From positions 1-28,127 of IMG/VR virus record IMGVR_UViG_3300032309_002770: DNA of 28,127 nt. One strand, 5' to 3'. A program made the translations under genes and the position numbers. Position 1 is the first letter of the stretch. Every line of letters starts with the position of its first letter. Positions 476 to 28,127 of the stretch are shown here, in pieces. The notes beneath the pieces are model-generated. The model saw nothing but the letters and a program-made list of their open reading frames with translations, had not been told where the DNA came from and did no database searches. Source of the DNA: a virus.

Positions 476-821
476 TGTCCCCAGATTGATACTGTTCTCG
501 CAACCTTTTGAGTCGTTGGTCAGCTAGCCGAGCAATCGATTGCACCTGGCGGCGCCCATCTGTGGCGATTGCATTGATGGCCTCCTTGGAGGCTCCATCT
601 GCCCCCATTTTTTTCATCTGCTCAATATTCTCATCCAAAACCTTAGCAGTCTCCTTGAGCGCCCAACCATTAATGCTTTCACTTCGCGCCAGGAATTCGG
701 CGGCTCTCTGCTCCCGTTTGGCGGTCTCCAGCGCTCCCACGGCTTCTTCGAGTTTGATCCGCAAGCCTGAGAGCGCCGCGCGCCCTTTGGTCCCCATCCC
801 CGCCGTTGCTCCACGTCCCAT
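459..821 (-). CDS. Small alpha-helical/coiled-coil protein, last gene of late operon
   Basis: A 120-residue protein with no recognised domain. It is charged and largely helical (repeated K, R, E and A between about residues 18 and 115) with no membrane segment. The first ATG at 821 has no Shine-Dalgarno sequence but has TTGAC 15 nt upstream (837-841), the recurrent spacing in this region. I therefore prefer it to the second ATG at 797, which has GGAG 11 nt upstream. The TGA inside that TTGAC is also the stop codon of the preceding 42-residue membrane protein. Base composition is more AT-rich than in the tail genes. It could be a lysis accessory protein or a small structural protein; the sequence does not decide. 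Confidence 0.7.
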   Translation of the reverse strand: MGRGATAGMGTKGRAALSGLRIKLEEAVGALETAKREQRAAEFLARSESINGWALKETAKVLDENIEQMKKMGADGASKEAINAIATDGRRQVQSIARLADQRLKRLREQYQSGDIMTPE

Positions 822-836
822 GGACCGGGCGAAGGA

Positions 837-841
837 GTCAA
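837..841 (-). promoter_or_regulatory. TTGAC start-associated motif, 15 nt before ATG at 821
   Basis: Minus-strand TTGAC with a 15-nt spacer to the ATG at 821. No GGAGG-like sequence lies between. Its TGA is the stop codon of the 838-966 gene. It supports the upstream ATG as the true start. Confidence 0.5.
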
Positions 842-966
842 CTCTTAAACATCGTGCCGATCGCCCAGCGCCAGATCCTGGCTAGATCCCACAAGGCCCA
901 AATCCCCAGCGCCAAGACCGCCACGAACACCCCCACAATCCCTAGCACGATCCACATCGGGTTCAT
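838..966 (-). CDS. 42-residue single-span membrane protein, possible holin
   Basis: A short ORF, MNPMWIVLGI... to ...GTMFKS. Residues about 4-26 form one strongly hydrophobic helix rich in V, I, L and A, followed by an amphipathic segment with several W and R residues (WDLAR, IWRW). The N-terminus is short and uncharged and the C-terminus is basic. TTGAC lies 14 nt before the ATG (981-985), and a weak AAGGG is also present. It sits between a lipoprotein-like gene and a helical gene at the end of the late operon, where phages often keep holins and spanins. A small one-span holin or antiholin is a reasonable reading by size and position only. Confidence 0.6.
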   Translation of the reverse strand: MNPMWIVLGIVGVFVAVLALGIWALWDLARIWRWAIGTMFKS

Positions 967-980
967 GCCACCCTTGCAAC

Positions 981-985
981 GTCAA
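981..985 (-). promoter_or_regulatory. TTGAC start-associated motif, 14 nt before ATG at 966
   Basis: TTGAC on the minus strand with a 14-nt spacer to the ATG at 966. Its TGA is the stop codon of the upstream lipoprotein-like gene. A weak AAGGG lies within the spacer. Confidence 0.5.
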
Positions 986-1230
986 AAGCGCGCCCTGAAG
1001 AAGCTCCCGATCGCGCTCCCCAGGAAGGCACCGCCCGCCATCGCTGCACCTGGGGCCTTGCTTGTAGTCGCCTCCACCTTCGCCCCTTCGATCCGAACGG
1101 TGGCCGCCGGTCCGAATGCCACCGTCCGGGTCAGAGTCCCCGTCGCCCGCACATACGTCGTATGCGAGGTGTAACACCCAACAGACTGCAAGGCCACCCC
1201 AACCAACAAAGCTCGAGACCACCCCTTCAT
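982..1230 (-). CDS. Small lipoprotein-like protein with C-terminal membrane segment, candidate u-spanin
   Basis: 82 residues. The N-terminus MKGWSRALLVGVALQSVGC has a basic start, a hydrophobic core and a Cys at 19 in a weak lipobox (SVGC). The middle (about 20-58) is Thr/Val-rich and probably extended beta. The C-terminus (about 60-77) is a Gly/Ala-rich hydrophobic stretch with a glycine-zipper pattern, then basic RARF. An outer-membrane lipid anchor plus a C-terminal inner-membrane span is the architecture of unimolecular spanins, which fuse the two membranes at the end of lysis. The start overlaps the stop of the upstream gene as ATGA, so translation is probably coupled. Alternatives are a glycine-zipper lipoprotein of host type or an exclusion protein. 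Confidence 0.65.
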   Translation of the reverse strand: MKGWSRALLVGVALQSVGCYTSHTTYVRATGTLTRTVAFGPAATVRIEGAKVEATTSKAPGAAMAGGAFLGSAIGSFFRARF

Positions 1231-1454
1231 TTCCTCAAAGCGTGGATTTCATCCCTCACGGCCACCAGTTCGTCCCGTAGATTAGACCGATCGTCCTCGC
1301 ATTTTTGTGCCCGGACGGTCAGATCCCGGCACAGCCCCTCCAAGGCATTGATTCGGGCTGTCTGCGCGACAGAATACTGGTTGAACATATAACAGATGGC
1401 GCCAGCCAGCGCCGCTGGCCAGCCCATCTCCGTGACAAACTGCGCGGGTTCCAT
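1227..1454 (-). CDS. Membrane-anchored coiled-coil protein, holin- or Rz-like
   Basis: 75 residues. An N-terminal hydrophobic helix (about residues 12-29, WPAALAGAICYMFNQYSV) is followed by a charged heptad-like helix (about 34-75) rich in R, E, D and L. One N-terminal span plus a coiled coil occurs in inner-membrane spanins (Rz), in XhlA and in BhlA/UviB-type holin-like proteins. I cannot separate these from sequence alone. It follows the glycosyltransferase gene after a 14-nt gap and is ATGA-coupled to the lipoprotein-like gene, which suggests the two products work together. Confidence 0.65.
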   Translation of the reverse strand: MEPAQFVTEMGWPAALAGAICYMFNQYSVAQTARINALEGLCRDLTVRAQKCEDDRSNLRDELVAVRDEIHALRK

Positions 1455-1468
1455 TCAGGAATCACCGC

Positions 1469-3184
1469 TCAGTTGAACAAACTGCGGAGGTGCTTCGCGA
1501 TCGGCAACACCGTGTCGTCGTCCAACTTCGTGGGGGTGGACTTCACCATGTTCTCGAGCTGGGTGACTAAGAAGTCCAACACCTCGCGGATCTTGTCCTC
1601 CGTCAGCACTGCCAGGAGTTGATTCACCAGCGCGGGGATCAAAAGCTTCAACATTTCCTTCTTCAGCATACCAGCAAAAGTCCTGTCAACCTGCAACAAC
1701 CCCAGCTTCACCTCCGTGCCCCACGACGCCGGTTCTGGATCGACCTCAGGCATCGCATCGATCACCGTCAGGCTTTCCGACTGCACCACACCCGCGCCCA
1801 AGCCCGTCGCGTGGTCGCAAACATACGGCACTAGCCAGCTCTTCCCTCCTCTGCGAGCCGACGCCAAATTCGCCGCCCAGTCCCACCCTCTCCCCATGTG
1901 ATCTGGCGGCAACGTCTCCAGATCACTCCGCCGCCACAGGGTAAATCCCGCCGCCGTGGATCCCACGATCCGCGCCGTCTCCACATCGTCCACCTGGATC
2001 GTCGGCACCCAAGCCTCCAACTCTTCGGACGCGCACGCATACCCGGGCCGATACCGCTCCTCATACACTGCACCGACGACGCCCACCGGCGTCCGGCCAG
2101 ATCCGGCCACCCACGGCCTCATCGTTACATTCATCCGCCGCCAGGTCTCTGCATGCTGGGGATAAACATCATCTTCCCAGGTCAGGATCCACGGCTCCGG
2201 CGTCATTTCCAGCGCACGTTGATACAGCCCATAGACCCTCGCGTGCCTCGCCAGGCGCAAGGCCTCGTCACTCATCCCCTGTGGAGCGCCCAGAGATTCT
2301 TCCCCTGTCACAAGCGCACGCACCACCCGCTCAGGGCCCACGATCCCGGCGATCTCCCCGGCCAGCCAATCCGCTGCCTCCGGTGGCCCATCCACCAGCA
2401 CCGTCACCGCCAGATCCGGCGGCAGCTCGTGCTCGCGCAAAGATTGCAACCACCGCTCACTCAAAGCCCGATCCCCCCGATGGATCGTCATCAGGCCAAA
2501 CTTCCGGGAGCCCCAAAGCTTCTCAGCCTCCGTCGCGGACTTGGACCGTTGCAACGGATGCCCACGCATCAGGATCGGCTCCCCCAGCATCCGCCGGAGC
2601 CGCCAACCCGCAATCTGCAACGTCCAACCCAGCCGCCAATCCTCCAAGAAGGTCCGGGGCCATCCACCCACACCCAACACCGCCTGGCGCCGCCACGCTG
2701 CGTTTGTATCCACCCCATACTCATCCCGAGCATCATCGGGAGTCATGAAACCAAGGTACGCGTCCCGATCATCCGCCCGGCCGATCGCCGACGTGAACTC
2801 CTGAGCCAATCCCGGGCGGGGCACATTGTCCGCATCCCAAAACACCACCCAAGGGCTCTGGCAACGCTCCAGCCCGGCATTGCGGGCGCCGCTGGGATGA
2901 CCTTCATTCACCTCCACGATCTCCCAACCGGGGAGCGTCACGCGCATCATGGCGCGATGCAATTCGCCAAACTCACATTGATCCAATACCAAGACCTTCT
3001 TCCCCGGGATATCTGCATTCGGCCATGCGGCCAAACATTCGTTGAGATACTCCCCAAGATACGGCCGATGGCACGTCACCACCAAATCCCACGGTACCGC
3101 AGACCTCCGCTCGGCAGGCGCCACCGGCTCACTCCGCCCCATCATCCGCGCGGCCACATCCGCCGCATTCACTCGCTGTTTCAT
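1469..3184 (-). CDS. Two-domain GT-A-type glycosyltransferase
   Basis: 571 residues. The first half is a family 2-like glycosyltransferase: a VVTCHRP opening at about 35-41, GARNAGL at 99-105, a FWDADN nucleotide-sugar/metal motif (DAD at 117-119), and FLEDWRLGW with the ED pair at 181-182. A second glycosyltransferase-like unit starts near 230 (MTIHRGDR) and carries TWEDDV with acidic residues at 337-339. The last ~75 residues are helical and amphipathic and may anchor the protein at a membrane. Likely role: transfer of sugars to virion proteins, phage DNA or host surface glycans; the acceptor is unknown. It closes the structural gene run, just before the membrane proteins. No Shine-Dalgarno or TTGAC motif precedes the ATG at 3184. 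Confidence 0.8.
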   Translation of the reverse strand: MKQRVNAADVAARMMGRSEPVAPAERRSAVPWDLVVTCHRPYLGEYLNECLAAWPNADIPGKKVLVLDQCEFGELHRAMMRVTLPGWEIVEVNEGHPSGARNAGLERCQSPWVVFWDADNVPRPGLAQEFTSAIGRADDRDAYLGFMTPDDARDEYGVDTNAAWRRQAVLGVGGWPRTFLEDWRLGWTLQIAGWRLRRMLGEPILMRGHPLQRSKSATEAEKLWGSRKFGLMTIHRGDRALSERWLQSLREHELPPDLAVTVLVDGPPEAADWLAGEIAGIVGPERVVRALVTGEESLGAPQGMSDEALRLARHARVYGLYQRALEMTPEPWILTWEDDVYPQHAETWRRMNVTMRPWVAGSGRTPVGVVGAVYEERYRPGYACASEELEAWVPTIQVDDVETARIVGSTAAGFTLWRRSDLETLPPDHMGRGWDWAANLASARRGGKSWLVPYVCDHATGLGAGVVQSESLTVIDAMPEVDPEPASWGTEVKLGLLQVDRTFAGMLKKEMLKLLIPALVNQLLAVLTEDKIREVLDFLVTQLENMVKSTPTKLDDDTVLPIAKHLRSLFN

Positions 3185-3211
3185 TTCTGTTGGATTTCGA
3201 TTTCATTTCCT

Positions 3212-4120
3212 TCAGCTCCCAGGCGAGCACCTTCCCGGCATCGTCATCACCTGCGAAGCGCTGGCCACCAAGTCCCCAGCCAACCGAGCCTGAGCCAGCA
3301 CCGTCTTGGTGGATGCCCAGGGGAACGTGAACGTCGTGCTCGGCAGAGGTGATGAGAACGTGATGGTCTGCCCCCGCGTCAGTGTTCCAGACCAGATCAC
3401 CGTGCCGATCGTGGACGGTCCGGAGGCTAGGCCGATTTGGACCGCATAAGTCCCCACAGGACCGCCGGTCAACGACACTTGGCCGATCGAGACCGTTGTT
3501 GACCCACCACCTGGGGATTCATCAACGGTCAGGCCGTCGATACAGAATCCCGTCGGCGCCAAGAATGATGAGACGTTGTTGCTCTGGGTGAACGCCAGCA
3601 CAGGGAGCCCGCCGCCGCCACCTCCAGCCGTTGGCCGATTCCGACGCCGTCCCGGCAGCCACTCCGGCTCAGACGGGCGCGGTGGCCATGGGATCGGCTC
3701 CTCCGGCCGCACCGGTTGCGGGCGGGCCCGTTCATCCACCGGCGGCATCGCCACATCCTTCCACGCCAGCGGCTCCATCGCATTGGCCACCGGCGGCAGC
3801 TCGCACCGGAGGCTCAGCGGATCCACCGCCGTGGTCAGCACATCATAGGGCCTGATCCGGAGCAGCTCCGCCAGGGCCGCCGCATCATTCACCCCTTCGC
3901 ATCCCACCTGGAGTGTCGTCCAATCCCACGCCAGCCAATCCTCCTCCGTCAGATCACCCGCCTGGAGCACTCGGAGCGTGGCCCCGCTCTGGTACCACCA
4001 CTTCCCCTCGTTCCAGCGGAGCCACTTGTCCGTCCACCCGGCGCGCCGGATCGGATAGCCGCGGCGGCCCACCCTCCGGGCGTAGGGGAGATGCATGCGT
4101 GGGGGGATCGTCGTCGCCAT
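3212..4120 (-). CDS. Virion-associated protein with possible Tad2/DUF2829-like N-terminal domain
   Basis: 302 residues in three parts. The N-terminal ~70 residues contain PIRRAGWTDKWL (23-34) and TEEDWLAWDW (58-67), the strand-turn and DLLAxDW pattern I associate with DUF2829, the family of the Thoeris anti-defence protein Tad2. A Pro/Arg-rich linker and a Gly run (about 168-173) follow. The C-terminal ~130 residues are Thr/Ser/Gly-rich and beta-like, as in tail-tip or carbohydrate-binding modules. This is one of few genes here with a good Shine-Dalgarno (GAGG at 4126-4129, 5 nt from ATG). Position among tail genes suggests a virion component. The Tad2 link is a motif-level guess. Confidence 0.65.
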   Translation of the reverse strand: MATTIPPRMHLPYARRVGRRGYPIRRAGWTDKWLRWNEGKWWYQSGATLRVLQAGDLTEEDWLAWDWTTLQVGCEGVNDAAALAELLRIRPYDVLTTAVDPLSLRCELPPVANAMEPLAWKDVAMPPVDERARPQPVRPEEPIPWPPRPSEPEWLPGRRRNRPTAGGGGGGLPVLAFTQSNNVSSFLAPTGFCIDGLTVDESPGGGSTTVSIGQVSLTGGPVGTYAVQIGLASGPSTIGTVIWSGTLTRGQTITFSSPLPSTTFTFPWASTKTVLAQARLAGDLVASASQVMTMPGRCSPGS

Positions 4121-4159
4121 GATTTCCTCAGGTTCAGTTCACTGCACCACCAGCGCCGC

Positions 4160-4930
4160 TCAGGCCACGTAATCCCGATGCGCCACCAGCCAGAACGATA
4201 AGCTGCTCCGGGTCGCGGGTCGTGGTTCCTCCTCGCCCATATCCACCAGATACTTCGTCTGGATCTGAGCCAGCAGCGGCACCGCGCTCCCCTGGGGCTT
4301 CTCGCGGTCCTGGATCAGATTCGCGATCATCGCGTCCGTCAGGACCAGCCAGATCGTGTATCGGGCCGTGTCGCCGTCCCCCTCCTTCACCGGCACCTCG
4401 TCGCCGCTGGGCACGAGCGAGATCCCTGACTCCGTGTCCTCCTCCCGCACCGTCACCCGGATCTCCGTCACCGGCAGATCGATCACCGTCTTCCGACGCG
4501 CGTACGTCACCGTGAGGGGGAACGCATCCCCGGCGCACACATGGACGATCTGCCGATGGTCCGGCGTCTCCTGCTCCTGCCCACGGAAACAAATCGCGTT
4601 CGTGTCCAGATCGATCACCGCGTGGAGCGCCCCGTCCGGCTCCACAACGGCATACTCCACCCCGAAGATGATCCGCACCGGCGTAGAGCTCCCGCTCCCG
4701 TTCGTGGCGATCAATTGCACCACCCAGAGGCTCCCCTCACTCTCCCGGTCCGGCGTCCCGCTGATCGCTCCCGTGCTCGTGTTCAGGGTGATCCCGGAGG
4801 GCAACGTCCCCACCACGCTCCAGCTCGTGGCGGCATCACTCCCCACCGCCACGCTCGGTTGGAACCGGTAAAGTTTCCCGCGTTCCATCGCGGGCAGGCT
4901 CGTCGTCGGGTCAATAATCGGTGCTGGCAT
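4160..4930 (-). CDS. Tail-associated protein with putative Ig-like (He_PIG) domain
   Basis: 256 residues. The N-terminal ~95 residues look like a He_PIG-type immunoglobulin-like fold, with the signature LPSGITLNTSTGAISGTP at 43-60 followed by an AT.GSGS strand region. Such domains decorate phage tails and bacterial surface proteins and usually bind sugars weakly. The remaining ~160 residues are unrecognised; they are acidic, beta-rich and contain VTYARRKTVIDLPV. It sits between the 802-residue distal tail protein and the Tad2-like fusion, with gaps of 20 and 39 bases. A role in the tail tip or in host-surface attachment is inferred. Confidence 0.7.
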   Translation of the reverse strand: MPAPIIDPTTSLPAMERGKLYRFQPSVAVGSDAATSWSVVGTLPSGITLNTSTGAISGTPDRESEGSLWVVQLIATNGSGSSTPVRIIFGVEYAVVEPDGALHAVIDLDTNAICFRGQEQETPDHRQIVHVCAGDAFPLTVTYARRKTVIDLPVTEIRVTVREEDTESGISLVPSGDEVPVKEGDGDTARYTIWLVLTDAMIANLIQDREKPQGSAVPLLAQIQTKYLVDMGEEEPRPATRSSLSFWLVAHRDYVA

Positions 4931-4950
4931 GATCGTTTGTCAGTTCGTCC

Positions 4951-7359
4951 TCACACAATCTTCGCGATTCCCAGGGTCTCGTCTTCCGCCCCCGTGGAGC
5001 CGATGTTCAGCCCCCGCGCGGCCGCCAGGCCCACCGGATTCGCCTCATTTCCCGGGTCAAATCGGGTCAACCGCCCCCGGATCACAAACTCCGCTGCCGC
5101 TGGCGTTTGGGTCGAAGTCTCGTCGCCGTAAAGCCTCTTCAAGGCCGTGATCGTCCCATTGGCCGCCCGATCGATCGTCAGGCCCAGGCGATGGATCGTC
5201 GGGATCGGGCTCAGGATCATCCGCTGGCTGATCGCCGGAGTCGTCACCGCCCAGGTGATCCCGCTCAAGTTCGGCCCTTGGACCGTCGGCGTCGTCACTG
5301 CCCCGGGCACCCCATACTCCACCGCCAGCACCCACTGAGCCCGGCTCGTCGCGTTCAGGATCGCCAGCTCCAGGCCCAGATCGAGCGTAAACCGCCGCTT
5401 CGCCCGGAACTGCTCCGCCAGCACCGCGAATTCAAACAGCGGCACCTCAAACTGCAACGGATAGAACGTTTTCTCCGTCCCAAACTGCTCCACCGGATAC
5501 CAATACCCCCGGCTCTTCACCGCATCCCAATAGACCGAGGCCAGCCCGTTCACGGGTAACAAATACCCGGCCCGACCGGACCCACCAGGGAGCCTCACGG
5601 CGGCGGAGCCCACATTCCGATAAATCTTGCCGGCATGAGTGGACCCGGCCGTGGGCAATGGGACAGGCAAGTCCGCCACCGCCACACTCGTGCTCACGGC
5701 AGGCATCAGCCCGCCTGGGCGGATCCCGCTCACATCCAGGCTCAAGAGAGAGCCCGTCACCGGGATCGCCTCCCGGGTCGGATACACAGAACTGATCGGC
5801 GGCAGCTCCCAGCGGGTCACCACATCCTCACCCGTCACCCGGGCCGCCAAAGCACCCGCTGGCACCAGCGTCTCCAGAGCCGTCACCCGCGCGCCCAGGC
5901 TCTCGAATGAGGCGTTCAACCCCGTGATCGCCGTCATCGGGTGCGTGTGCGCCTCGAACGCGCTCTTCGGCCCCGCCGCCGTCAACGTCACGATCAGCCC
6001 ATCCGTCCTTGGGACTCCTGGCTCTTCGGCGGTCGCCCCATTCCAACTTGGCTTGATCGTCAGAGTGATCGAGTCGTCTCCCAGAAATACGACGTCATAA
6101 TGGGTGCCCAGCACCATCATCGCGCCATTCGGCTCATTCTCGGCGACCGTGATGTGGAGGTTCCAGCTCCCCAGCTCGTGGTCGATATCAAACTGATCGT
6201 CCGTTCCGTTTCCGACCTCGCGCACATAATGCTGATCCCCCGTGATCACACTGTCCGGATCGTACGGGATATGATCCCGTGGCCCAGGCGGCCGAAGCCA
6301 ATCAATACTCTGGCGCGCCGCCATCCCGGCCCGGATCACTTCGCGCCGGAGGGTCACAGCATCGCGGCAGACTGTGTAAACAAACGGAATATCCTCTTCC
6401 TCAATCTCCACCTCGATCTCCACCGCCAGGTCGGTCACATCGCCAGAGCGGAGCAGGGCCGCCACCTCGCGCGTGTTCAGCGGCATCACCAGCGTCACAT
6501 CCCCGGGCGGAGCATCCACCACGAAGACCTCCAAAAGGGGATGATCGATCCCGATGAAATCCGTCCCGGTGAACTCGATAAACGCCGTGTTCCCGTCAGG
6601 ATTACCCACCGTCCAGCCTTCCCCTTCCAGCGCGATCGCATTGAGGGCGGCCGCGATCTCCTCCGCCCCATCCGCCGCCGTCAGGGGTACCGTCCGGCGG
6701 AGATCCCACCGGAGCTGGTACGTCCCCACGAACCGCGGATCCACGTAAAGCTTCTGGACCTCGTTCCAGGTCGTCCCCTCGCTTTCGCCCCCGGCCTGGA
6801 CCTCCGTCACCACCGGCGCGGGTGGGACGATGCGATCGAACCCGCTCGTAAACGCCACCGGCGCCTGGACCAGCCGGATCTCGTGGGCCAATCGCGACCC
6901 GCGCCGATAGGTCGATGTTTGCACAAAGCAATCCGGCTCCAGGCTGCTGGACGCGAACCCGATCGTCACCGGATCATCATCATGGGCCACATCGGGGAAC
7001 GTCAGGCGATACCCCCCAGGCACCGCATCCACCGTGGGCGCGCCACCCGGCCGGGCCGCCAAGACCGTGGCCAGCGCTGGGGCATCCACGTTCCAGCTCA
7101 CCTCAGGCGCCGTCCAGGCGCCGATCAGGAGGGAAAATCGGCCGCCCGTGGGCCGTGCATCCACCCGCCCCAAAGACATCCGCGCCGCCGTCACCGTGGG
7201 CCGCACCTCCACCAGATCCCCGCTGTCCACGCTGCGCGTGAACCGGAGCTGGACCCGCACATCGTCCCCCTGGATCAGTGGGGGCCAGGAAAACTGGGTC
7301 CCGTCCGCCGCCCCACTGACAAATCCCCGATCCAGGTTGGCGAAGAGCAGACTATCCAT
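4951..7359 (-). CDS. Large distal tail / fibre-like protein (802 aa)
   Basis: The largest product in the window. It is beta-rich throughout with many V, T, P and G residues. An AHTHPMTAITGL segment around residues 468-480, followed by a short heptad helix (SFESLGARVTALETL), is typical of trimeric tail-fibre hinges with metal-binding HxH motifs. The C-terminal third is again beta-rich (YWYPVEQFG and following). I find no catalytic domain. The ATG at 7359 is preferred over an in-frame TTG at 7380 because TTGAC (7376-7380) lies 16 nt upstream, and because this start overlaps the previous stop by only 8 nt. Probable role: baseplate hub, tail-tip or receptor-binding protein. Which of these cannot be told. 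Confidence 0.75.
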   Translation of the reverse strand: MDSLLFANLDRGFVSGAADGTQFSWPPLIQGDDVRVQLRFTRSVDSGDLVEVRPTVTAARMSLGRVDARPTGGRFSLLIGAWTAPEVSWNVDAPALATVLAARPGGAPTVDAVPGGYRLTFPDVAHDDDPVTIGFASSSLEPDCFVQTSTYRRGSRLAHEIRLVQAPVAFTSGFDRIVPPAPVVTEVQAGGESEGTTWNEVQKLYVDPRFVGTYQLRWDLRRTVPLTAADGAEEIAAALNAIALEGEGWTVGNPDGNTAFIEFTGTDFIGIDHPLLEVFVVDAPPGDVTLVMPLNTREVAALLRSGDVTDLAVEIEVEIEEEDIPFVYTVCRDAVTLRREVIRAGMAARQSIDWLRPPGPRDHIPYDPDSVITGDQHYVREVGNGTDDQFDIDHELGSWNLHITVAENEPNGAMMVLGTHYDVVFLGDDSITLTIKPSWNGATAEEPGVPRTDGLIVTLTAAGPKSAFEAHTHPMTAITGLNASFESLGARVTALETLVPAGALAARVTGEDVVTRWELPPISSVYPTREAIPVTGSLLSLDVSGIRPGGLMPAVSTSVAVADLPVPLPTAGSTHAGKIYRNVGSAAVRLPGGSGRAGYLLPVNGLASVYWDAVKSRGYWYPVEQFGTEKTFYPLQFEVPLFEFAVLAEQFRAKRRFTLDLGLELAILNATSRAQWVLAVEYGVPGAVTTPTVQGPNLSGITWAVTTPAISQRMILSPIPTIHRLGLTIDRAANGTITALKRLYGDETSTQTPAAAEFVIRGRLTRFDPGNEANPVGLAAARGLNIGSTGAEDETLGIAKIV

Positions 7360-7552
7360 TTCCGGGCGCCGGGGTGTCAACCGGCAGCGGGACGCATCCG
7401 AAGAATCCAGGGTCGAACGGCTCGACCGGCCAAGGATAGGGCGGGCTCAACGCCGCCGCCGCTTTAGGCGCATCCCGCTCTGCCAGGAGCCGACGCCGCT
7501 CCCGCTCCTCCGCCAGCCGCGCCTCCTTGTCCAACCCACGGGGAGGAATCAT
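7352..7552 (-). CDS. Small hypothetical protein between amidase and distal tail gene
   Basis: 66 residues. The N-terminal half is highly charged (KEARLAEERERRRLLAER, about 9-26) and helical; the C-terminal half is Pro-rich (SPPYPWPVEPFDPGFFG and PVDTPAPGNG). No signal peptide or membrane segment. The start overlaps the amidase stop as ATGA, so translation is probably coupled. The codons for the PVDT segment also form the TTGAC motif that precedes the next gene. Function unknown; a small tail assembly factor is possible. Confidence 0.6.
   Translation of the reverse strand: MIPPRGLDKEARLAEERERRRLLAERDAPKAAAALSPPYPWPVEPFDPGFFGCVPLPVDTPAPGNG
7376..7380 (-). promoter_or_regulatory. TTGAC start-associated motif, 16 nt before ATG at 7359
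   Basis: TTGAC on the minus strand in the context CGGTTGACACCCC. The same context occurs at 25555-25559, and nearly the same at 20215-20219. Here it lies inside the coding sequence of the 66-residue protein. Spacer to the ATG is 16 nt with no GGAGG. Confidence 0.5.
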
Positions 7553-8286: not shown

Positions 8287-8431
8287 GTGCTGGCTTTCGC
8301 GAGTCAATCCGGCCCTTCACGGCATCAGAGAGACAAGCCGCCAAGGCGCACAGCAGCGTCAGCCAAAGGATCAGGCAAAAGCATCCCATGGCATCCGCGC
8401 ACATCGCGCCCACTCGTTTCCATTTGCTCAT
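8234..8431 (-). CDS. Small membrane/lipoprotein-like protein overlapping the amidase gene
   Basis: 65 residues. A basic start (MSKWKR) is followed by a hydrophobic Cys-rich segment (about 12-33) ending in LAAC, a good lipobox with Cys at 33. The last 32 residues are short and polar. It could be an Rz1-like outer-membrane spanin lipoprotein or, if not lipidated, a one-span holin. The start overlaps the 316-residue gene's stop as ATGA, and its 3' end overlaps the amidase start by 53 nt in another frame, as often seen among lysis genes. The overlap and the gene chain make it likely real. Confidence 0.65.
   Translation of the reverse strand: MSKWKRVGAMCADAMGCFCLILWLTLLCALAACLSDAVKGRIDSRKPAHERASEFGTADLSQVVR
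8303..8307 (-). promoter_or_regulatory. TTGAC start-associated motif, 16 nt before ATG at 8286
   Basis: Minus-strand TTGAC in the context GGATTGACTCGC, with 16 nt to the amidase ATG. It lies inside the 65-residue membrane-protein gene in another frame, so its conservation is not explained by that protein or by a stop codon. Confidence 0.5.
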
Positions 8432-10062: not shown

Positions 10063-10067
10063 GTCAA
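10063..10067 (-). promoter_or_regulatory. TTGAC start-associated motif, 15 nt before ATG at 10047
   Basis: Located in the intergenic gap 10048-10074, so it belongs neither to a coding sequence nor to a stop codon. The spacer holds GAGAGCTGAGAGC, a weak purine tract that could also help ribosome binding. Confidence 0.55.
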
Positions 10068-10377: not shown

Positions 10378-11007
10378 CTAGGATTGCTTCTTCAAACATA
10401 GCGAAATACGCTGATTTACATCGTCCCGGTCCTCTCGCATTATTCGAAATCCGGCAGCGATTACCATATCCACAAGGCCACTCCTCGTTGGCCAAAATGA
10501 GATCGGATTAGACCATGCCGATTGGCTGAATGTCTCGATTTGCCCTAGTTTTGCCGCTTCTGGATATTCGCGAAACCACCGGCCAGGGAACCCCTCGTGG
10601 GTCTGGAGTTCCCCAAGCCTATCAGCAAATCGTGACGAGGTCTGCTCGTCCGAAAAATGCGTATCTACCACGGCGGAAATCCTCGTCACGGAAGCTAGGT
10701 TTCCTAGAAATTGTGCCGGACAATCGAGATGATAGAGCAACCCAGAGCAAAACGCATGATCCCATTGCCTGCCTAGCTCCGCAATCATTTTTGCATCGGC
10801 TTGGATATACTCACAGCCCCTGCCCCGTTCGCATTGCGCGAGGTTTGAGGCTCTCGCCTCAACGCCCGTGACGTCATACCCACCATCCGAGAATGCCTGA
10901 GCGTATGCGCCGTGTCTGCACCCGATGTCCACAAGGCTCTTGCCCTCGCAAAAAAATCGAATCGCACGCTCAAGCGTGTGAATGTTGGCTGGTGGATATT
11001 CAGACAT
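10378..11007 (-). CDS. Class I SAM-dependent methyltransferase (moron)
   Basis: 209 residues. A Rossmann-fold methyltransferase: SAM motif I LVDIGCRHGAY (25-35), acidic E50 at the end of strand 2 (TGVEA), YIQADA (67-72) and CSGLLYHLDCP (87-97), as in Methyltransf_23-like enzymes that often act on glycans or small molecules. The substrate is unknown; surface sugar modification would fit the glycosyltransferase elsewhere in the window. It has the best Shine-Dalgarno here (GGAGGA at 11013-11018, 5 nt from ATG), unlike most neighbours. GC is visibly lower than the flanks (28 of 60 bases in 10381-10440 by my count). It is flanked by duplicated pieces of a tail gene. These signs point to recent gain. 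Confidence 0.87.
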   Translation of the reverse strand: MSEYPPANIHTLERAIRFFCEGKSLVDIGCRHGAYAQAFSDGGYDVTGVEARASNLAQCERGRGCEYIQADAKMIAELGRQWDHAFCSGLLYHLDCPAQFLGNLASVTRISAVVDTHFSDEQTSSRFADRLGELQTHEGFPGRWFREYPEAAKLGQIETFSQSAWSNPISFWPTRSGLVDMVIAAGFRIMREDRDDVNQRISLCLKKQS

Positions 11008-16685: not shown

Positions 16686-16690
16686 GTCAA
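16686..16690 (-). promoter_or_regulatory. TTGAC start-associated motif, 15 nt before ATG at 16670
   Basis: Context GATTTGACTGCC in the 43-base intergenic gap 16671-16713. It is independent of the upstream stop codon and of any coding sequence I can support. Confidence 0.55.
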
Positions 16691-20200: not shown

Positions 20201-20202
20201 GG

Positions 20203-20400
20203 TCAGGATTGGGTGTCAACCGGCTCCCCATGGACGCTGATCTCGGCCAAATGGGCATCGGCCCGGATCAGGCGGACCATGTCGATGCAATGCTGCTTGT
20301 GGACATACCCTTCACCGCTGTCCGCGATGATCTGCCCGTTGCTGGCCACGAGGTGCCAACGCCATTCGTTCGCTTGATCTTGGAAAATGTTGAATTTCAC
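20203..20400 (-). CDS. DUF1508/YegP-like small protein
   Basis: 65 residues from a GTG start that overlaps the previous stop as GTGA. The sequence reads FNIFQDQANEWRWHLVASNGQIIADSGEGY and then IDMVRLIRADA, which is the DUF1508 (YegP) repeat: strand, WRW, NG..IA.S.GY turn, then helix. These are small beta-alpha proteins widespread in bacteria, and I know of no firm function. Inside a capsid-tail gene run this is unusual. No signal peptide. The end of its coding sequence (PVDTQS) contains the TTGAC motif that precedes the next gene. Confidence 0.8.
   Translation of the reverse strand: MKFNIFQDQANEWRWHLVASNGQIIADSGEGYVHKQHCIDMVRLIRADAHLAEISVHGEPVDTQS
20215..20219 (-). promoter_or_regulatory. 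TTGAC start-associated motif, 14 nt before ATG at 20200
   Basis: Context CGGTTGACACCC, nearly identical to the sites at 7376-7380 and 25555-25559. It lies inside the coding end of the DUF1508-like gene and has a 14-nt spacer without Shine-Dalgarno. Confidence 0.5.
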
Positions 20401-20711
20401 GATAGGGATGCCCTGACAAACCAGGTGGTGGCGGTGGGGGTGTCTCCGCGCACTTCATCCACCGTAAACACGGCGCCGCCGTATTCGATCCGGCTCTTGT
20501 CCGGCGGGGCCTGGGGCAGGATGGTTTTGCGGATGGATGCGGTCAGGGTCCGGACCCGCTGGGTGCCCCCATCCACGCGCTGGACTTCCACAGATCCCAG
20601 GGTGATGGCGGCAAAGATGACGGAGCCGTTGACGGTGATTTCCTCCCCGCGAAGGGCGTGATTGGCCTCATCCGCGGCGGCGTGAAACGCGGCCAAGCTG
20701 GCGCGGGTCAT
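20397..20711 (-). CDS. Head-tail connector candidate
   Basis: 104 residues. A helical N-terminus (LAAFHAAADEANHALRG) is followed by beta strands with VNGSVIFAAITLGSVEVQRVDGG and a closing TVDEVRGDTPTATTWFVRA. Short helix-plus-beta-sandwich proteins in this place are usually head-tail joining or stopper proteins (lambda gpFII-like). No specific family recognised. Start and stop codons share a base with the upstream gene (TAATG), and a GGAG lies 9 nt upstream of the ATG. Its stop overlaps the next GTG. Confidence 0.6.
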   Translation of the reverse strand: MTRASLAAFHAAADEANHALRGEEITVNGSVIFAAITLGSVEVQRVDGGTQRVRTLTASIRKTILPQAPPDKSRIEYGGAVFTVDEVRGDTPTATTWFVRASLS

Positions 20712-21160: not shown

Positions 21161-21206
21161 GGAAAAGGGGGATCAGTTCAGCTCAGCACACTCACACGCC
21201 CACGCC

Positions 21207-22172: not shown

Positions 22173-22240
22173 AGGAGTGGTGAGTTAGTGAGGGAGGTGA
22201 AAAATCAGGTGCGTGCTGTCGACGTGGCCGGAATGTCAAA

Positions 22241-22765: not shown

Positions 22766-22780
22766 CTCTGGCGGGGTAGC

Positions 22781-22785
22781 GTCAA
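22781..22785 (-). promoter_or_regulatory. TTGAC start-associated motif, 15 nt before ATG at 22765
   Basis: Context CGTTTGACGCTACC on the minus strand. The TGA is the stop codon of the S49 protease. Spacer to the scaffold ATG is 15 nt and contains CCCGCC, no Shine-Dalgarno. Confidence 0.5.
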
Positions 22786-23672
22786 ACGAACCGGGTCTGG
22801 CGCTCTTCCATGAGGCGCGCCAGGAGGTGGTGCACGGAAGGGACGATGCCGTCGATAAGTCCCGCTTCCAGGGCTTCCTCCCCAGACATCCAGCGGCCAT
22901 CCAACGCGGCGCGACTGATCCCGGGGCGCCAGTCCGTCACCGCCTTCTTGAAGGCACCGCCAGTGGCATCCACCCGGGCTTGGAGGAACTCTCGCTCCTC
23001 TTTGGATAGGGCTTTGCCCGGGATGCCGATGCCTTTGAGCGCGCCGTCCCGGAAGACGTCCATCTTGAGGCCTTTCTTGGCCATATACTCGCCCTGATCG
23101 AGGAGGGCGATGTAGGCCGAAATACTGCCGACGACGGCGGTGGATGGTGCGTAAATCTCCTGGCACGCGGCCGCCAGCCAATATCCAGCAGAGGCGGCCT
23201 CCACATCCAGATACCCCACGGTCCGCTTGTCTGCCGATAGCTCCCGGATCAGTGAGGCTACGTCTCCCACGCCGGACGCTGTCCCGCCCGGTGTGTTGAA
23301 GCGGAAGACGACGGTGTGGACATCCCTCCGGCGGCCCAGGGCCACGACGGCATTTTCCAGCGTGGCCAGATCGTAGCCATCCGCACAGAGCATCTCCAGA
23401 AGGCTGAGGTGTTTGCCGATGGTGCCCGCGACGTCGATGAGCGCGAACCCGGCATCGATCTTCACCGGGGCCAGGGCTTGCTCACCCACAGGGAAAGCGG
23501 CCGTGCCGGGAGCGATGGCGGCATGTTCGATCGTGGTCCCTGCCGGAAGCTGGACCGGCAACGCGCTGCCCGCCAGGTAATCCGCCAATCCCGCCCCCAT
23601 GGCCCGGTGCACATCCGGCCGGATGAGCCAGGGTTCAGCGAGGAATTTGGTGAGGAGACGCGTGGGGATCAT
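22782..23672 (-). CDS. S49 family capsid maturation protease
   Basis: 296 residues. A serine-lysine peptidase of the SppA/lambda gpC type, expected to process portal, scaffold or capsid during head maturation. NTPGG at 126-130 forms the oxyanion region; the nucleophile is S161 in AASAGYW; VVGSISAY at 180-187 supports the fold; K213 in DGALKGIG is the likely general base. The C-terminal WMSGEEALEAGLIDGI is typical of the family. There is no signal peptide, as for phage members. A near-match to the recurrent motif, TTTAC, lies 14 nt before the ATG. The portal gene ends 19 bases upstream. Confidence 0.9.
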   Translation of the reverse strand: MIPTRLLTKFLAEPWLIRPDVHRAMGAGLADYLAGSALPVQLPAGTTIEHAAIAPGTAAFPVGEQALAPVKIDAGFALIDVAGTIGKHLSLLEMLCADGYDLATLENAVVALGRRRDVHTVVFRFNTPGGTASGVGDVASLIRELSADKRTVGYLDVEAASAGYWLAAACQEIYAPSTAVVGSISAYIALLDQGEYMAKKGLKMDVFRDGALKGIGIPGKALSKEEREFLQARVDATGGAFKKAVTDWRPGISRAALDGRWMSGEEALEAGLIDGIVPSVHHLLARLMEERQTRFV

Positions 23673-23691
23673 GTCAGAGGGAGGGTGTAAA

Positions 23692-25230
23692 TCACGCGGC
23701 CTGGGCTACCGGCGGCGGTGGTGGTGGGAAGAGGCCTGGGAAGGCCTCGTCCGGGCGGAGTTGGTTCTCCGCGCAACGCCGCTTGATGTAGGCCGTCTCG
23801 ATGATCTTCTGGTCGATCTTGTCTTGCCAGAAAGCGCCGCGCTCGCCCCACTCGTCAAGGAACGTGGTCATGCCCGCGCCAAGCTGGGTGATGGAAAGCG
23901 CTCCATCCCGGCCCAGATCGATGGTCATGTCCGGCTGGCCAATCCAAAGGACTTTCCCGGGGAGATACCAGAATTCGTCAGACGGGGCGCGGAGTCGACC
24001 CGCTTTGATCTCCCGGGCGATGAAGTAAACGAACACCCGCTGGCACCATTGGGCTAAGAGGTGGTGCTCATTCAGGAGCCAGCGCTGGACCTCAGCCAGC
24101 ACTGATCTCACCCCGGGCCCGGTCAGGCCGGAGATATCGCACATGACCTCATAAGGGAAATCCGCCGCCCAGGAGCAATCCCGCATCAGGGCTTTTTCAA
24201 AATCTTGCTGGTTCGGATGCGGCCGCCCATCCGCCACCACTCGGACGTGCTCGCCCGGGGCCAAGCGCGGCACGGATGCCCCGGCGTAGACCGCCTCCCA
24301 GTTGATCGCGACGTTGCCGCCCTTGCCATCCGCCTCTTGGGTCTGGATCAGGGGCCCGGTCATCCCGCCGCCGGGGAAGTTCACAACCTGGCCCAGGTCG
24401 CGCTCGATCACGGTGCCGACCCTCGCCCGCTCCTTGATCCCCACCTTGGTGAAGCCTCGGCTCTCCACGATGTCGATCATGTTGCACACCGCGCCGGTGA
24501 GGATGGACTGGCCACGGGTCTGGCCGTGAGACTTGAAGGTGCCCAGGTAGATGGTGTTGCGCGCCGCGATCTCCGAAAACTTGCTGGGATCTACTCCGTC
24601 CCGGATCTGGTAGGCCAGGTGTTTGCCCCATGGATCCAGCCGGACTCCCATGTGATCCCGCCAGTCTGGCTTGCGGGTTTTGCTCAGCGCGGCCCGGCCG
24701 GTGATCTGGTGCCCTTCGTAAAAGCCGAAACGGGCGCCGCCCGCCTGGGTCTCCGTGAGGACGGTGAGGTGATCGCCATCCCGGAACCGGGAGCGGTTCG
24801 CCTGCCGTTGCGCGCCCCAAAAGTCGAACCGGCCCGCCATATCGAACAGCTCCGGAGACCCGGCCCGGGCGCGGAAGGCATCGAACGCCAACTTGTTCCA
24901 GGCCTCGTCACTGCTGATGGGCTGCGGGGTGAGGGTGCCCACGAATTTCGTGAGGCCATCGATCATGCGGTTCGCGAACCCGAAGTTCCCCACCAGCCAG
25001 TGGACCCGGCGCCGGATTTCCGCGTGGCTCAACTCCGTCCACTGGCGGCGGGTGTCGTCGGTGGGGAAATAGAGGTAGCCGCGATTTGGGCTGTCGTTGG
25101 CCGCCTCGAACCCGGAGGACAGGAAAAACGGGCGCGGGCCGGAAGTCGGGCCCGTGGCGCTAACGGACAAGTTGGGGCGGCTCCCCGCGCGGGGAGCCGT
25201 CCCAGCCTTCTTGGTAAGTTTCTTGCCCAT
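23692..25230 (-). CDS. Portal protein, lambda family
   Basis: 512 residues from MGKKLTKKAG. The portal ring forms the DNA channel and nucleates capsid assembly. Family signs: R..VHWLVGNFGFANRMIDGL (about 70-90), a FDFWGAQRQANRSRFRDGDHLTVL region (about 150-173), YQIRDGVDPSKFSEI, then LLAQWCQRVFVYFIAREI near 400, a basic N-terminus and a Pro-rich end (FPPPPPPVAQ). The ATG at 25230 is two bases after the upstream stop. An in-frame TTG at 25236 overlaps that stop as TTGA and has TTGAC 17 nt upstream (25254-25258), so initiation might occur there. No Shine-Dalgarno. Confidence 0.92.
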   Translation of the reverse strand: MGKKLTKKAGTAPRAGSRPNLSVSATGPTSGPRPFFLSSGFEAANDSPNRGYLYFPTDDTRRQWTELSHAEIRRRVHWLVGNFGFANRMIDGLTKFVGTLTPQPISSDEAWNKLAFDAFRARAGSPELFDMAGRFDFWGAQRQANRSRFRDGDHLTVLTETQAGGARFGFYEGHQITGRAALSKTRKPDWRDHMGVRLDPWGKHLAYQIRDGVDPSKFSEIAARNTIYLGTFKSHGQTRGQSILTGAVCNMIDIVESRGFTKVGIKERARVGTVIERDLGQVVNFPGGGMTGPLIQTQEADGKGGNVAINWEAVYAGASVPRLAPGEHVRVVADGRPHPNQQDFEKALMRDCSWAADFPYEVMCDISGLTGPGVRSVLAEVQRWLLNEHHLLAQWCQRVFVYFIAREIKAGRLRAPSDEFWYLPGKVLWIGQPDMTIDLGRDGALSITQLGAGMTTFLDEWGERGAFWQDKIDQKIIETAYIKRRCAENQLRPDEAFPGLFPPPPPPVAQAA

Positions 25231-25232
25231 GT

Positions 25233-25538
25233 TCAAACGCGCACTGCGGACAGGTCAAAGCGGACGTGAGGCTGGCCTCCGCCATCCGGCGCGGCGGCGG
25301 GATTCCCTGGATCGCCCAGGCGCCGCAAGGCTTCCTGGCAGGCGCGCATGAAGTTTTCCCGAAGCTCCGGCTTGTCGAGGACGATGCCGGAGTGGGCCTC
25401 GCCCTCCAACTGGCTGCCGGTAATGACCACGGTGGTGCTCAGTCCACCCATGTGGGCCTGGAGCACGGACTTCCAAGCCGCCCGGATCGCGGCAGCATCA
25501 AGAAACTCGATGAGGCTCGCGACGAGAATTTGGTCCAT
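25233..25538 (-). CDS. Small protein between large terminase and portal
   Basis: 101 residues from MDQILVASLI. Helical N-terminal part (ASLIEFLDAAAIRAAWKSVLQAHMGG), strands TTVVITGSQLEG, a helix ELRENFMRACQEALRRLG, then a flexible Gly/Pro end. Lambda gpW stands at this place, but I see no gpW signature. The start lies 41 bases inside the terminase gene; TTGAC is 16 nt upstream of it (25555-25559), which selects it over a TTG at 25559. It may be a head-completion factor. Confidence 0.7.
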   Translation of the reverse strand: MDQILVASLIEFLDAAAIRAAWKSVLQAHMGGLSTTVVITGSQLEGEAHSGIVLDKPELRENFMRACQEALRRLGDPGNPAAAPDGGGQPHVRFDLSAVRV

Positions 25539-27288
25539 CGTCTGCGGTCGGGGTGTCAACCGTGCCGCCCTGGGCCATGGCCCGCCGTTGCGTCTCCACG
25601 ATCATGGAGCTGAGGAGGATCTGTTTCAGGCAGTCGCCCCAGTGGTCATTCGGCAGGCGCTTCCACCGCCGGGTGCGGGACAGGGCCCGGTCTTCCATCA
25701 TCTGCTGGCCGGAGAGATGGGCCACCAGCTCGGCATCGGCATCCCCAGGGATCCAGACGCGCGGGGTGCCCAGCTCTTGGATCCGGCGGACGTAGAGTTC
25801 GTATTTCAGCGTGAAGTCGCTGAAGTTGTAGATCTTCAGGCCCGGATGGCTCCGGACGTCCGCCTCGGACCAGGTGCCAAAGGTGGCGTCCTGCCCCCGC
25901 GTGGGCCACCAGCGGCCTTTCGTGTTGTAACAAAACGTTTCCACGCGCTCCGGCATGTAACCGGCATCGCACAAGCCGCGCGGCCAGGTGTGGCCATCGA
26001 TCGCGTCCGGCAGCTTGCCCAGGTCTTCGACCGCCATGCACGTGCCCCAGTCCAAGACCGCGATGTCCCCGTTCTTGTGCACGGCGCCGATCATCCAGTG
26101 CGTCCGGTGCTGGCCCGGATCCGCCGCCGCCAGGAGGTAATCCACCTCCCCCCGGACCTGGCGCCGGAGATACCAATCCGCCCGGCAGCGCTCCACCGCC
26201 TCCTTCTTGACGCGGACCGCAACCTTGGAGAAGGGCTTGGCCAGCCAGGAGTTCGTGAAGTTCTCGAGGCCGAAGAGGTCGTGGCCGTTCAAGAACTCCA
26301 CCGCCACGTCTCCCCAGGTGATCCGTGGAGAGTAAAGGGACGGGAGCCGGAAGGACCGGAACGCCTGGGTGCCAGCGGGGAACTCCGGGACCCATTGGCC
26401 GGTGTCCAGCATGTCGATCTTGGCCTCGTTGGGGATCGGGAACCCGCACTTCGGGCAGATGTAACGGGCCTGGGCCTTCACGGCATCCTCCACCCAGACC
26501 CCTGCGGCATTGCGGCACGTCTCTGGCCAGACGATGGACCGGTAGCCCGTGGCCTCGTCGTGGTCGAACTCCAGCGGGAAGTCGCCCCGGCAGTTGGGGC
26601 ACTCCAAATGGTTCAAGCACTGATCGCCCCGGCAAAACTCGTGCCAGAAGAGGTGGTTCTCGTGGTTCGGGCTGGACGAGAGGTAGCGGAAGGCGATGTC
26701 CTTGAAGTCCTTGGCGCGCTCCGTCGCCAGCTTGATGGGGTGCGCTTCCGGGGCATCCTCGCTCTCGCGGTGGATGATCTTGCAAGCCTCGTCGATGACG
26801 ATGATCCCTTTGCTCCGGCCGGAGAGCTGAGTCGGAGAATTCGCCCCCACCAGGCTCAGCTCCATCCCCAGCATGTGCATTTCCAGGGCCTGGAACAGAT
26901 CGGCGTTCGGGGGCTTGAGCTCCGCCAAGCAGGGGTTGGCATTGATCAGCGGGTGGAACTTCTCGAACGCGATGACCTTCCGGGCAAAGTCCTCCGCCGG
27001 GACCACGTAGAGCGCCGGGAGCGGGTTCCACTTCATCCGATACGCCACCCCCAGGACCGCGCTCAAGGTCTTCATGAGCTGCGTGCCGGCCGCGACGACG
27101 ACGTCATTGGTTCCAGACTCCGGGTGCCAGGTGTTTAGGATCTCGCGCTGGAACGGCAGCGCCCGGAACGGCCCCGGAGATCGCGGGGACATCTTCCGGG
27201 GGATCTTGATGTTCTCCTCCAACCAATCGGCAGGGAGCGGCCGCTTCCGCACCGCGAAGGAGCGCATGAACTCAGCGTAACGGCTCAT
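25498..27288 (-). CDS. Terminase large subunit, GpA (lambda) type
   Basis: 596 residues. The ATPase and nuclease that packages DNA into the prohead. The ATPase half has VVAAGTQLMKT (about 64-74) as the Walker A-like loop and GIIVIDEA (161-168) as Walker B with D166/E167. Two CxxC pairs (C230/C233 and C278/C281) suggest a zinc knuckle between the domains. The nuclease half has AAADPGQ with D390 and CDAGY with D441. Length is close to lambda gpA (641). Start at 27288 overlaps the upstream stop as ATGA, which rejects an upstream in-frame codon at 27345. GpA-type terminases usually act at cos ends. Confidence 0.93.
   Translation of the reverse strand: MSRYAEFMRSFAVRKRPLPADWLEENIKIPRKMSPRSPGPFRALPFQREILNTWHPESGTNDVVVAAGTQLMKTLSAVLGVAYRMKWNPLPALYVVPAEDFARKVIAFEKFHPLINANPCLAELKPPNADLFQALEMHMLGMELSLVGANSPTQLSGRSKGIIVIDEACKIIHRESEDAPEAHPIKLATERAKDFKDIAFRYLSSSPNHENHLFWHEFCRGDQCLNHLECPNCRGDFPLEFDHDEATGYRSIVWPETCRNAAGVWVEDAVKAQARYICPKCGFPIPNEAKIDMLDTGQWVPEFPAGTQAFRSFRLPSLYSPRITWGDVAVEFLNGHDLFGLENFTNSWLAKPFSKVAVRVKKEAVERCRADWYLRRQVRGEVDYLLAAADPGQHRTHWMIGAVHKNGDIAVLDWGTCMAVEDLGKLPDAIDGHTWPRGLCDAGYMPERVETFCYNTKGRWWPTRGQDATFGTWSEADVRSHPGLKIYNFSDFTLKYELYVRRIQELGTPRVWIPGDADAELVAHLSGQQMMEDRALSRTRRWKRLPNDHWGDCLKQILLSSMIVETQRRAMAQGGTVDTPTADDGPNSRREPHRVS
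25555..25559 (-). promoter_or_regulatory. TTGAC start-associated motif, 16 nt before ATG at 25538
   Basis: Context CGGTTGACACCCC inside the coding end of the large terminase (TVDTP). Spacer to the ATG is 16 nt with no Shine-Dalgarno. Confidence 0.5.
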
Positions 27289-27449
27289 CCCAACGGCCCC
27301 CAAAACGCGCGCGGCACCTCCGCCACCTGGCCGTCGATCACCCACCGGTGGAGATCACAGACATCGCCCCAGAAATCGCAATGCCACCGGGCCACCGCTA
27401 CGCACGGCCGCCCCTCGGTGCACTGCTGGCACTGACCCGCCGGGATCAA
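27285..27449 (-). CDS. Cys-rich small protein between terminase subunits
   Basis: 54 residues if it starts at the TTG at 27449, which overlaps the previous stop as TTGA; an ATG at 27500 in the same frame would give 71 residues but a 55-base overlap. The Cys/His pattern, CQQC, GRPC, HCDFWGDVCDLH, looks like a small zinc-binding unit with five Cys and two His. Its stop overlaps the large terminase start as ATGA. A regulatory or DNA-binding partner of the packaging enzyme is possible; no family recognised. Confidence 0.55.
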   Translation of the reverse strand: MIPAGQCQQCTEGRPCVAVARWHCDFWGDVCDLHRWVIDGQVAEVPRAFWGPLG

Positions 27450-28054
27450 GCAGCCGTCGCCAGCTCCTCCACCGCGGGGTTGAACTTCAATTCCAGCCAT
27501 TTGGTTCCTGCCCGAATCGCCTGAATGGGATTCTCTGGATTCGCTTCGGACGCGATGTCCTGGGGAAACCGCTCAATTACCCCAGCCAGAAGCTGAGCCC
27601 CGCTGAGTAGTTTCTCATATTCGGCCCGGGACAATAGCTCCCGAGATTCTATTTGAGCCTGGACCCGGGCCCGCCGGGCTTCGATGTAGGCCTTCCGGGC
27701 CTCACAAGCCAATTTCGTGAACCCGCCCGCCAGCATGGCCTGACCTTTCTGAGTCGCGGCCAGCGCTTGCCGACTCGCCTCCTGCCACAGCTCCCAGTGG
27801 CGCCGCTCCATCTCCACAGGATCCCCCATGATCGGCGGCAGATCCATGCTCACCGGGCCCGCCGGATCCACCGGCCCGCATTTCGGTTCCAGGACCAACT
27901 CCTCCCCGGAAGCCCGAACCCGGCCCTCAGCGGTGGCCACGAACTCCCGCCACTTCTCGGTCTCGTGCTTGGCATTCCACTGAGCCGACCGGAGCTTCAA
28001 CCCCGACGCCTCGGCAAAAGCCCGAATCATCTGAGCCCTGGAGTGGTTCGCCAC
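27446..28054 (-). CDS. Small terminase subunit candidate
   Basis: 202 residues from GTG at 28054. Starts with ANHSRAQMIRAFAEASGLKLRSAQWNAKH, a helix-turn-helix-like opening as in Nu1-type subunits. Residues about 80-160 are a long helical region (MERRHWELWQEASRQALAATQKGQ, EARKAYIEARRARVQAQIESREL) that would form the oligomer. The C-terminal stretch is acidic to neutral. TTGAC lies 14 nt before the GTG (28069-28073), supporting that start over the in-frame ATG at 28030. Location two genes before the large terminase fits, but no family match is claimed. Confidence 0.65.
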   Translation of the reverse strand: MANHSRAQMIRAFAEASGLKLRSAQWNAKHETEKWREFVATAEGRVRASGEELVLEPKCGPVDPAGPVSMDLPPIMGDPVEMERRHWELWQEASRQALAATQKGQAMLAGGFTKLACEARKAYIEARRARVQAQIESRELLSRAEYEKLLSGAQLLAGVIERFPQDIASEANPENPIQAIRAGTKWLELKFNPAVEELATAA

Positions 28055-28127
28055 ATTGCGCCCCGCCTGTCAATTGCGCTTTGCTCATTGCGCCACTTCT
28101 CCCGTTTCGAGCGGGGGACAAGAGCCC
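28055..28127 (-). other. Non-coding right edge with GCGCAAT repeats
   Basis: No supported gene. The heptamer GCGCAAT (minus strand) occurs three times (28055-28061, 28073-28079, 28087-28093), with start-to-start distances of 18 and 14 bases. A weak 6-bp hairpin (CCCG...CGGG) lies near the edge. It could hold terminase-binding or cos-related sites in front of the small terminase gene. Confidence 0.3.
28069..28073 (-). promoter_or_regulatory. TTGAC start-associated motif, 14 nt before GTG at 28054
   Basis: Context CAATTGACAGGCGG in the non-coding right end of the window. Spacer to the GTG is 14 nt. No -10 element follows at 16-18 nt, so a promoter reading is weak. Confidence 0.5.

Follow-up and report, generated by a model that had tools for sequence, protein, structure and literature searches.

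This study examined a short element, TTGAC, that stands before start codons in the virus record IMGVR_UViG_3300032309_002770, a linear IMG/VR sequence of 28,127 bases that was analysed as a whole and is called the window here. The window has 64% GC and its genes lie almost all on the minus strand. Matches to PHROGs assigned a terminase large subunit (TerL), portal, head protease, tape measure and endolysin, and the phage to which it belongs is of siphophage type, with a lambda-like GpA terminase. Judging from its relatives, its host is probably a Verrucomicrobiota bacterium, the genomes searched with its portal being Verrucomicrobiota. An original prediction, made from the sequence alone, had listed ten copies of TTGAC 14-16 nt before starts and proposed a start signal other than a Shine-Dalgarno sequence. 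All ten copies were verified on the minus strand, two of the starts (28054 and 821) being less certain (Table 1), and a signal that accompanies starts, keeps a fixed distance from them and is not a Shine-Dalgarno sequence does exist, replicated in scores of related phages.

Table 1. Copies of TTGAC ahead of start codons in the window, with the marker gene used for finding relatives
Feature	Coordinates	Strand	Remarks
TTGAC	28069..28073	-	Spacer 14 to GTG 28054; 202-amino-acid gene upstream of TerL; start less certain, caller favours ATG 28030
TTGAC	25555..25559	-	Spacer 16 to ATG 25538; gene of about 100 amino acids between TerL and portal; within TerL reading frame
TTGAC (possible extra site, doubtful)	25254..25258	-	Spacer 23 to portal ATG 25230, or 17 to TTG 25236
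Portal gene	23692..25230	-	phrog_21 match and alignments; served as marker for finding relatives
TTGAC	22781..22785	-	Spacer 15 to ATG 22765; includes TGA stop of protease gene
TTGAC	20215..20219	-	Spacer 14 to ATG 20200; possible cement/decoration protein (weak Pfam match)
TTGAC	16686..16690	-	Spacer 15 to ATG 16670; intergenic gap; L103 homologue has TTGAC at 14
TTGAC	10063..10067	-	Spacer 15 to ATG 10047
TTGAC	8303..8307	-	Spacer 16 to ATG 8286; endolysin gene
TTGAC	7376..7380	-	Spacer 16 to ATG 7359; 802-amino-acid gene; within preceding reading frame; L103 homologue also at 16
TTGAC	981..985	-	Spacer 14 to ATG 966; includes TGA stop of preceding gene
TTGAC	837..841	-	Spacer 15 to ATG 821; includes TGA stop of preceding gene; start less certain, caller favours ATG 797

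Genes were called with a home-made program that used codon usage only and was blind to the motif, so that starts were not picked by their TTGAC. With these calls, TTGAC preceded 8 of 36 minus-strand starts in the window at 14-16 nt, against 0.096 expected, and none at 0-13 nt. The pentamer itself is rarer than chance would give (25 copies on the minus strand and five on the plus strand, 30 versus 43.8 expected), and TTGAC at 14-16 nt came top of all 1024 pentamers in 38 spacing windows, with p=1.6e-13 before correction for the 38,912 tests. The further suggestion that the other genes start by ATGA-type overlap or have another signal held for some of them, but the starts at 23672, 22172, 21160, 19350, 16325, 15361 and 1454 have neither overlap nor Shine-Dalgarno sequence.

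The IMG/VR contigs used for comparison are uncultivated and mutually related; near-duplicates were removed for site statistics and kept in raw counts. The closest TerL relative in IMG/VR, IMGVR_UViG_3300032249_001011 (L103, 48% identity), carried TTGAC at spacer 13-17 before 6 of 24 motif-blind starts. Four further relatives were recovered by portal alignment, and L106 had the word at 14-17 nt before 7 of 23 starts, though its coding strand holds just 12 copies. The site is common to the window and L103 in three of the four or five motif genes with homologues, while the upstream DNA has diverged, and the small gene between TerL and portal, with TTGAC at 16 nt in the window, has it at 14 nt in L103, L106, L108 and L110. 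Near 10939-10957 of L103 the core is doubled (TTTGACTTGACTTGATGCC) before a GTG at 10957, with TTGAC 13 and 8 nt upstream.

Prophages gave the same picture. A portal profile found matches in 32 of 388 Verrucomicrobiota genomes, and twenty 20-kb stretches at such portals (469 genes) contained 34, 14, 8, 16 and 6 sites at spacers 14 to 18, respectively, and at most three at any other; TTGAC at 14-17 nt thus preceded 72 of the 469 genes. In the complete genomes, matches to TTGACAN{13,16}ATG clustered in the prophage, which contained 5 of 13 in G079 and about 9 of 51 in G129. Some motif sites and genes of L135 and L136 (G079:C1:3723001-3763000) are duplicated, the site before GTGCAGCTCTACTTC being one case, an arrangement that would fit two adjoining, related prophages, and a second possible TTGACA cluster at 1.36-1.38 Mb of G129 consists of sites that are not start-associated.

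A larger sample came from an alignment of second-group portals, which matched 413 IMG/VR stretches, the best 80 loci of which were analysed. The signal was present in 77 of these 80, at 398 of 1,295 starts, with 213, 37, 35, 95 and 18 sites at spacers 14 to 18, 11 at 21 and no more than three elsewhere. When gene calling was dispensed with, ATG followed TTGAC on the sense strand 124, 63, 39, 83 and 26 times at 14 to 18 nt, against about nine at other distances, and the antisense strand of the same loci had no such peak. The test of distance that had been set beforehand therefore came out clearly for TTGAC at 14-16 nt, even without gene calling, and about a quarter to a third of the starts in these Verrucomicrobiota viruses carry the motif. 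It is located mostly in the late region, mainly at structural genes. That chance, composition or protein coding makes this pattern is extremely improbable. In one early batch, 20 of 101 sites included the TGA stop of the preceding gene, and that TGA shares the frame of the start when the spacer is 14 or 17, but 62 of the 101 were intergenic, and independent phages repeat the pattern, their other spacings being almost empty; the spacer spectra, together with the p-value in the window, uncorrected as it is, refute such an origin.

The signal was not found in the hosts. In background stretches of the signal-bearing genomes the motif preceded only 3 of 559 genes, so that the suggested check for the signal in the host was negative. 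A first count had made a signal throughout Verrucomicrobiota apparent, but its reversed-pattern control was misleading: over 241 genomes, the control spacing of 26-28 nt gave about the same result as 14-16 nt, and spectra taken directly showed no peak. In contractile-tail loci from this phylum, one site was found among 231 genes. The Akkermansia phage Moulinsart, the best named TerL match, lacks TTGAC at 14-16 nt before its annotated genes, bar one short case at 16 nt (ORF 19108), and a Moulinsart-like prophage in G025, G112, G150 and G324 is likewise without the signal, as is Verrucomicrobia phage P8625 at 14-18 nt. Since the signal occurs in related phages and prophages but is nearly absent from host genes, contractile-tail loci and Akkermansia phages, it is one of lambda-like siphophages and not of their hosts, and belongs to a broad, though not universal, set of such phages of Verrucomicrobiota. 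It did not serve as a lineage marker, as signal-bearing phages do not make one portal clade; in the portal tree they fall in two deep groups, with several changes.

Two other patterns were seen in this comparison. In P8625 (L204, KP792622), TTGAC lies exactly 31 nt upstream of all four starts at 5448, 10772, 15594 and 22442; three of the four read TTGACA-N17-TATTGG or TATCTG-N7-ATG and have a GTATCC...GGATAC inverted repeat, and from their sequence these sites look like promoters for leaderless mRNAs with an operator. In the host background (L152-L171, L207-L224), the pentamers GCTTG and CTTGC are over-represented 31-36 nt upstream of host starts, which suggests -35 boxes of short-leader or leaderless transcripts.

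The anatomy of the element was derived from 240 pooled unique sites. It reads [GT]TTGACA(C), with A directly after the core in about 80% of sites and C nearly absent ahead of it, always in the sense orientation of the gene, and the start codon follows 14-18 nt after TTGAC. A G at +11/+12 after the core keeps register with TTGAC and not with the start (G+12 in 43 of 73 sites with spacers 16-18, p=1e-9). The window's own clade retains the core, with weak extensions (A 43%, G+12 43%), and the degenerate variants TTAAC and TTTAC showed only a weak excess at 14-18 nt. GTG starts are almost confined to the shortest spacer, as if 14 were the optimum: 36 of 129 unique sites at spacer 14 have GTG versus 2 of 109 at 15-18 (p=5.5e-9), and without gene calling GTG after TTGAC peaks at 14 only (77 versus about 10). 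The spacer is GC-rich, with 19-35% AT at most positions versus 38-54% at other starts. In L253-L332 and the pooled sites, spacers of 14 and 17 are preferred to those of 15 and 16, also without gene calling; the TGA inside TTGAC is then in frame with the start.

An ordinary sigma-70 promoter was rejected, as the original prediction had argued: TANNNT lay 13-17 nt after TTGACA in 0 of 240 sites, and the spacer is GC-rich. The main rival to a translational signal, which we regard as a tentative possibility, is a phage-specific promoter of mRNAs that have no leader or almost none, at which a modified RNA polymerase would read TTGACA...GG and start about 14 nt after TTGAC, at the start codon or up to 4 nt before it. 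The sharp lower bound of the spacer at 14, the GTG starts found almost only there, the rigid inner spacing of a bipartite element and the letters TTGACA themselves all agree with this, and promoters with short leaders seem to exist in the hosts, where TTGAC precedes 21 of 559 starts at 28-48 nt; P8625, another Verrucomicrobia phage, has the TTGACA-N17-TATtgG-like-N7-ATG arrangement. Such a promoter would, however, have no -10 box and an unusually GC-rich putative melting region, sites with spacer 15 lack a pyrimidine-purine step at the fixed start, and TTGACA would sit at about -19..-14 from the transcription start, a position that to our knowledge fits no known sigma factor.

The position of the genes bears on the same question. 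The motif was present at 39% of operon-first genes, which agrees with a promoter, but also at 52% of internal genes lying 11-40 nt behind their neighbour and at 23% of overlapping genes, against 6% of genes at 0-10 nt; it is thus not mainly a feature of operon heads, and such a distribution would be expected of a signal for independent initiation.

Regulation by DNA or RNA binding provides another explanation, namely that the sites are operators for a phage repressor or late regulator, and this we consider unlikely. The stoperators of cluster A mycobacteriophages are repressor sites with no fixed distance to start codons, and their consensus contains TTGACA on the other strand; like them, the present element is an asymmetric word repeated in a single orientation, in phages only and mostly in the late region. 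A DNA operator, on the other hand, needs no start codon in a 5-nt window behind it, including at sites inside the preceding reading frame, there is no shared palindrome, and the signal spans deeply diverged portal clades, whose repressors should differ.

Pairing with the ribosome was considered next to these. The 3' ends of the host 16S rRNAs read ...GGATCACCTCCTTTCT, with the usual CACCTCCTTTCT at the end, and contain no complement of TTGACA, so that the complementarity raised by the original prediction was not borne out there; TGTCAA is absent from the 16S rRNA of G025, G079 and G112, and a single GTCAA occurs at about 1188, in G079 only. With no such complement and a distance of 14-18 nt versus about 5-10 nt, a Shine-Dalgarno site was rejected. 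Five-mer Shine-Dalgarno matches were at control level at motif sites, and the hosts have no clear Shine-Dalgarno enrichment; a survey lists Akkermansia and Verrucomicrobia bacterium IMCC26134 as scarce in Shine-Dalgarno sequences with intact CCUCC (PMC10783764). No Rfam 15 family was found in the window at gathering scores.

Folding set the motif starts apart. The minimum free energy z-score of the region -14..+20, relative to shuffles, was -0.67+-0.08 at 240 motif starts and 0.05+-0.05 at 250 others, with more stable folding in both the prophages (-0.88+-0.16) and the second IMG/VR group (-0.63+-0.09). The start codon is often bridged by a stem: bridging pairs numbered 4.63, versus 3.85+-0.30 after shuffling of the spacer only and 2.52 at other starts, and composition explains part of this effect. 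A fixed hairpin with covariation was rejected, the bridging stems varying in register and no single pair covarying strongly. A start that is structured and lacks a Shine-Dalgarno sequence needs other help, and a role at the level of translation is therefore favoured. If the mRNAs were leaderless, hairpins with their 5' arm in the spacer would silence only read-through transcripts, as in the T4 lysozyme mRNA.

On balance, we lean towards a phage-specific, translation-level start signal of non-Shine-Dalgarno type, read on the mRNA as UUGAC and probably acting positively rather than negatively. Hosts of these phages barely use Shine-Dalgarno sequences, and the other phage starts lie in weakly structured leaders; UUGACA may then mark cistrons that need initiation of their own, often behind or within the preceding cistron, at more structured starts. 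From the geometry of the ribosome, UUGACA at about -14 to -22 would fall near the mRNA exit side of the 30S subunit, where a host or phage factor might bind it; alternatively, UUGACA may be a site at which a phage protein regulates late genes. Several observations weigh against this preferred explanation. The GG keeps its place relative to TTGACA and not to the start, and TTGACA is identical to the -35 consensus; each of these facts could suggest recognition on DNA. The near-confinement of GTG to spacer 14 would equally suit leaderless mRNA whose transcription begins at a fixed point there; folding in the window's clade was not significant (-0.24+-0.23); and in non-overlapping genes the motif does not tell against a Shine-Dalgarno sequence (p about 0.2). 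Nor does the 3' end of host 16S rRNA offer a complement, and nothing resembling a translation factor was present among the families common to signal-bearing prophages, which comprise integrase, AAA ATPase, helicase, ParB-like, DUF669 and DUF1016 proteins. Proteins with a ParB N-terminal domain lie upstream of the terminase (L140:3186-4733, L140:1469-2119), and this family was found in 10 of 15 signal-bearing phages and 0 of 5 without the signal.

A bolder form of the translational explanation, which we put forward as speculative, is a dedicated phage initiation system, in which a phage-encoded or specialised host factor would read UUGACA-N10-GG in mRNA and direct the ribosome to a start codon 1-5 nt beyond it, including one that lies in a hairpin. 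Late genes would then be translated independently of Shine-Dalgarno sequences and apart from host mRNAs.

In the open-access literature that was searched, without subscription journals and preprints, no description of a TTGAC motif of this kind was found. The nearest known thing is the start-associated sequence (SAS) and extended SAS (ESAS) of cluster K mycobacteriophages, a 13-bp element, GGGATAGGAGCCC, with AGGAG within it, which lies 3-7 nt before starts of many unrelated genes in the non-structural half of the genome, is absent from the host and has a proposed, untested role in translation (Pope et al. 2011, PMC3203893). Both are short asymmetric repeats in one orientation, associated with the starts of many unrelated genes in phages and not in hosts. 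When the sites were tested against SAS, orientation, start association and host absence agreed, but the consensus and the 3-7 nt distance did not, the present element being TTGAC(A) without a Shine-Dalgarno sequence, 14-18 nt before mainly structural genes. The stoperators of cluster A (L5 and kin) resemble the element in being asymmetric repeats of the phages alone, set in a single orientation close to gene boundaries, with the letters TTGACA on one strand, but differ as repressor sites without the fixed start distance seen here; PMC3203893 names them as transcriptional. A Shine-Dalgarno sequence, too, is short and confined to a narrow range ahead of the start codon, and differs in its 16S complement and in lying closer to the start. 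The sites of P8625, as a leaderless-type sigma-70 promoter in a Verrucomicrobiota phage, share the TTGACA word and a fixed start distance, but have a -10-like box between TTGAC and a start 31 nt away. Initiation at locally unstructured starts in bacteria scarce in Shine-Dalgarno sequences (Scharff et al. 2011, as cited in PMC10783764) resembles what is seen in the hosts and at the other starts of these phages, whereas the motif starts depart from it in having more structure than expected.

Bacterial translation beyond the Shine-Dalgarno interaction is poorly understood, above all in phyla where such sequences are scarce, and a defined word at a defined distance, in phages and not their hosts, offers a testable handle on how ribosomes or phages choose start codons or, should it turn out to be a promoter, on a promoter class out of the ordinary. 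Its practical uses are a sharper calling of starts and, perhaps, the recognition of Verrucomicrobiota phages in metagenomes.

Two further genes of the window were recorded, both on the minus strand. A 571-amino-acid protein with a family 2 glycosyltransferase domain is encoded at 1469-3184, among the tail-end genes, and a protein with a methyltransferase domain of the small-molecule type, at 10378-11007, is inserted in the tail gene region.

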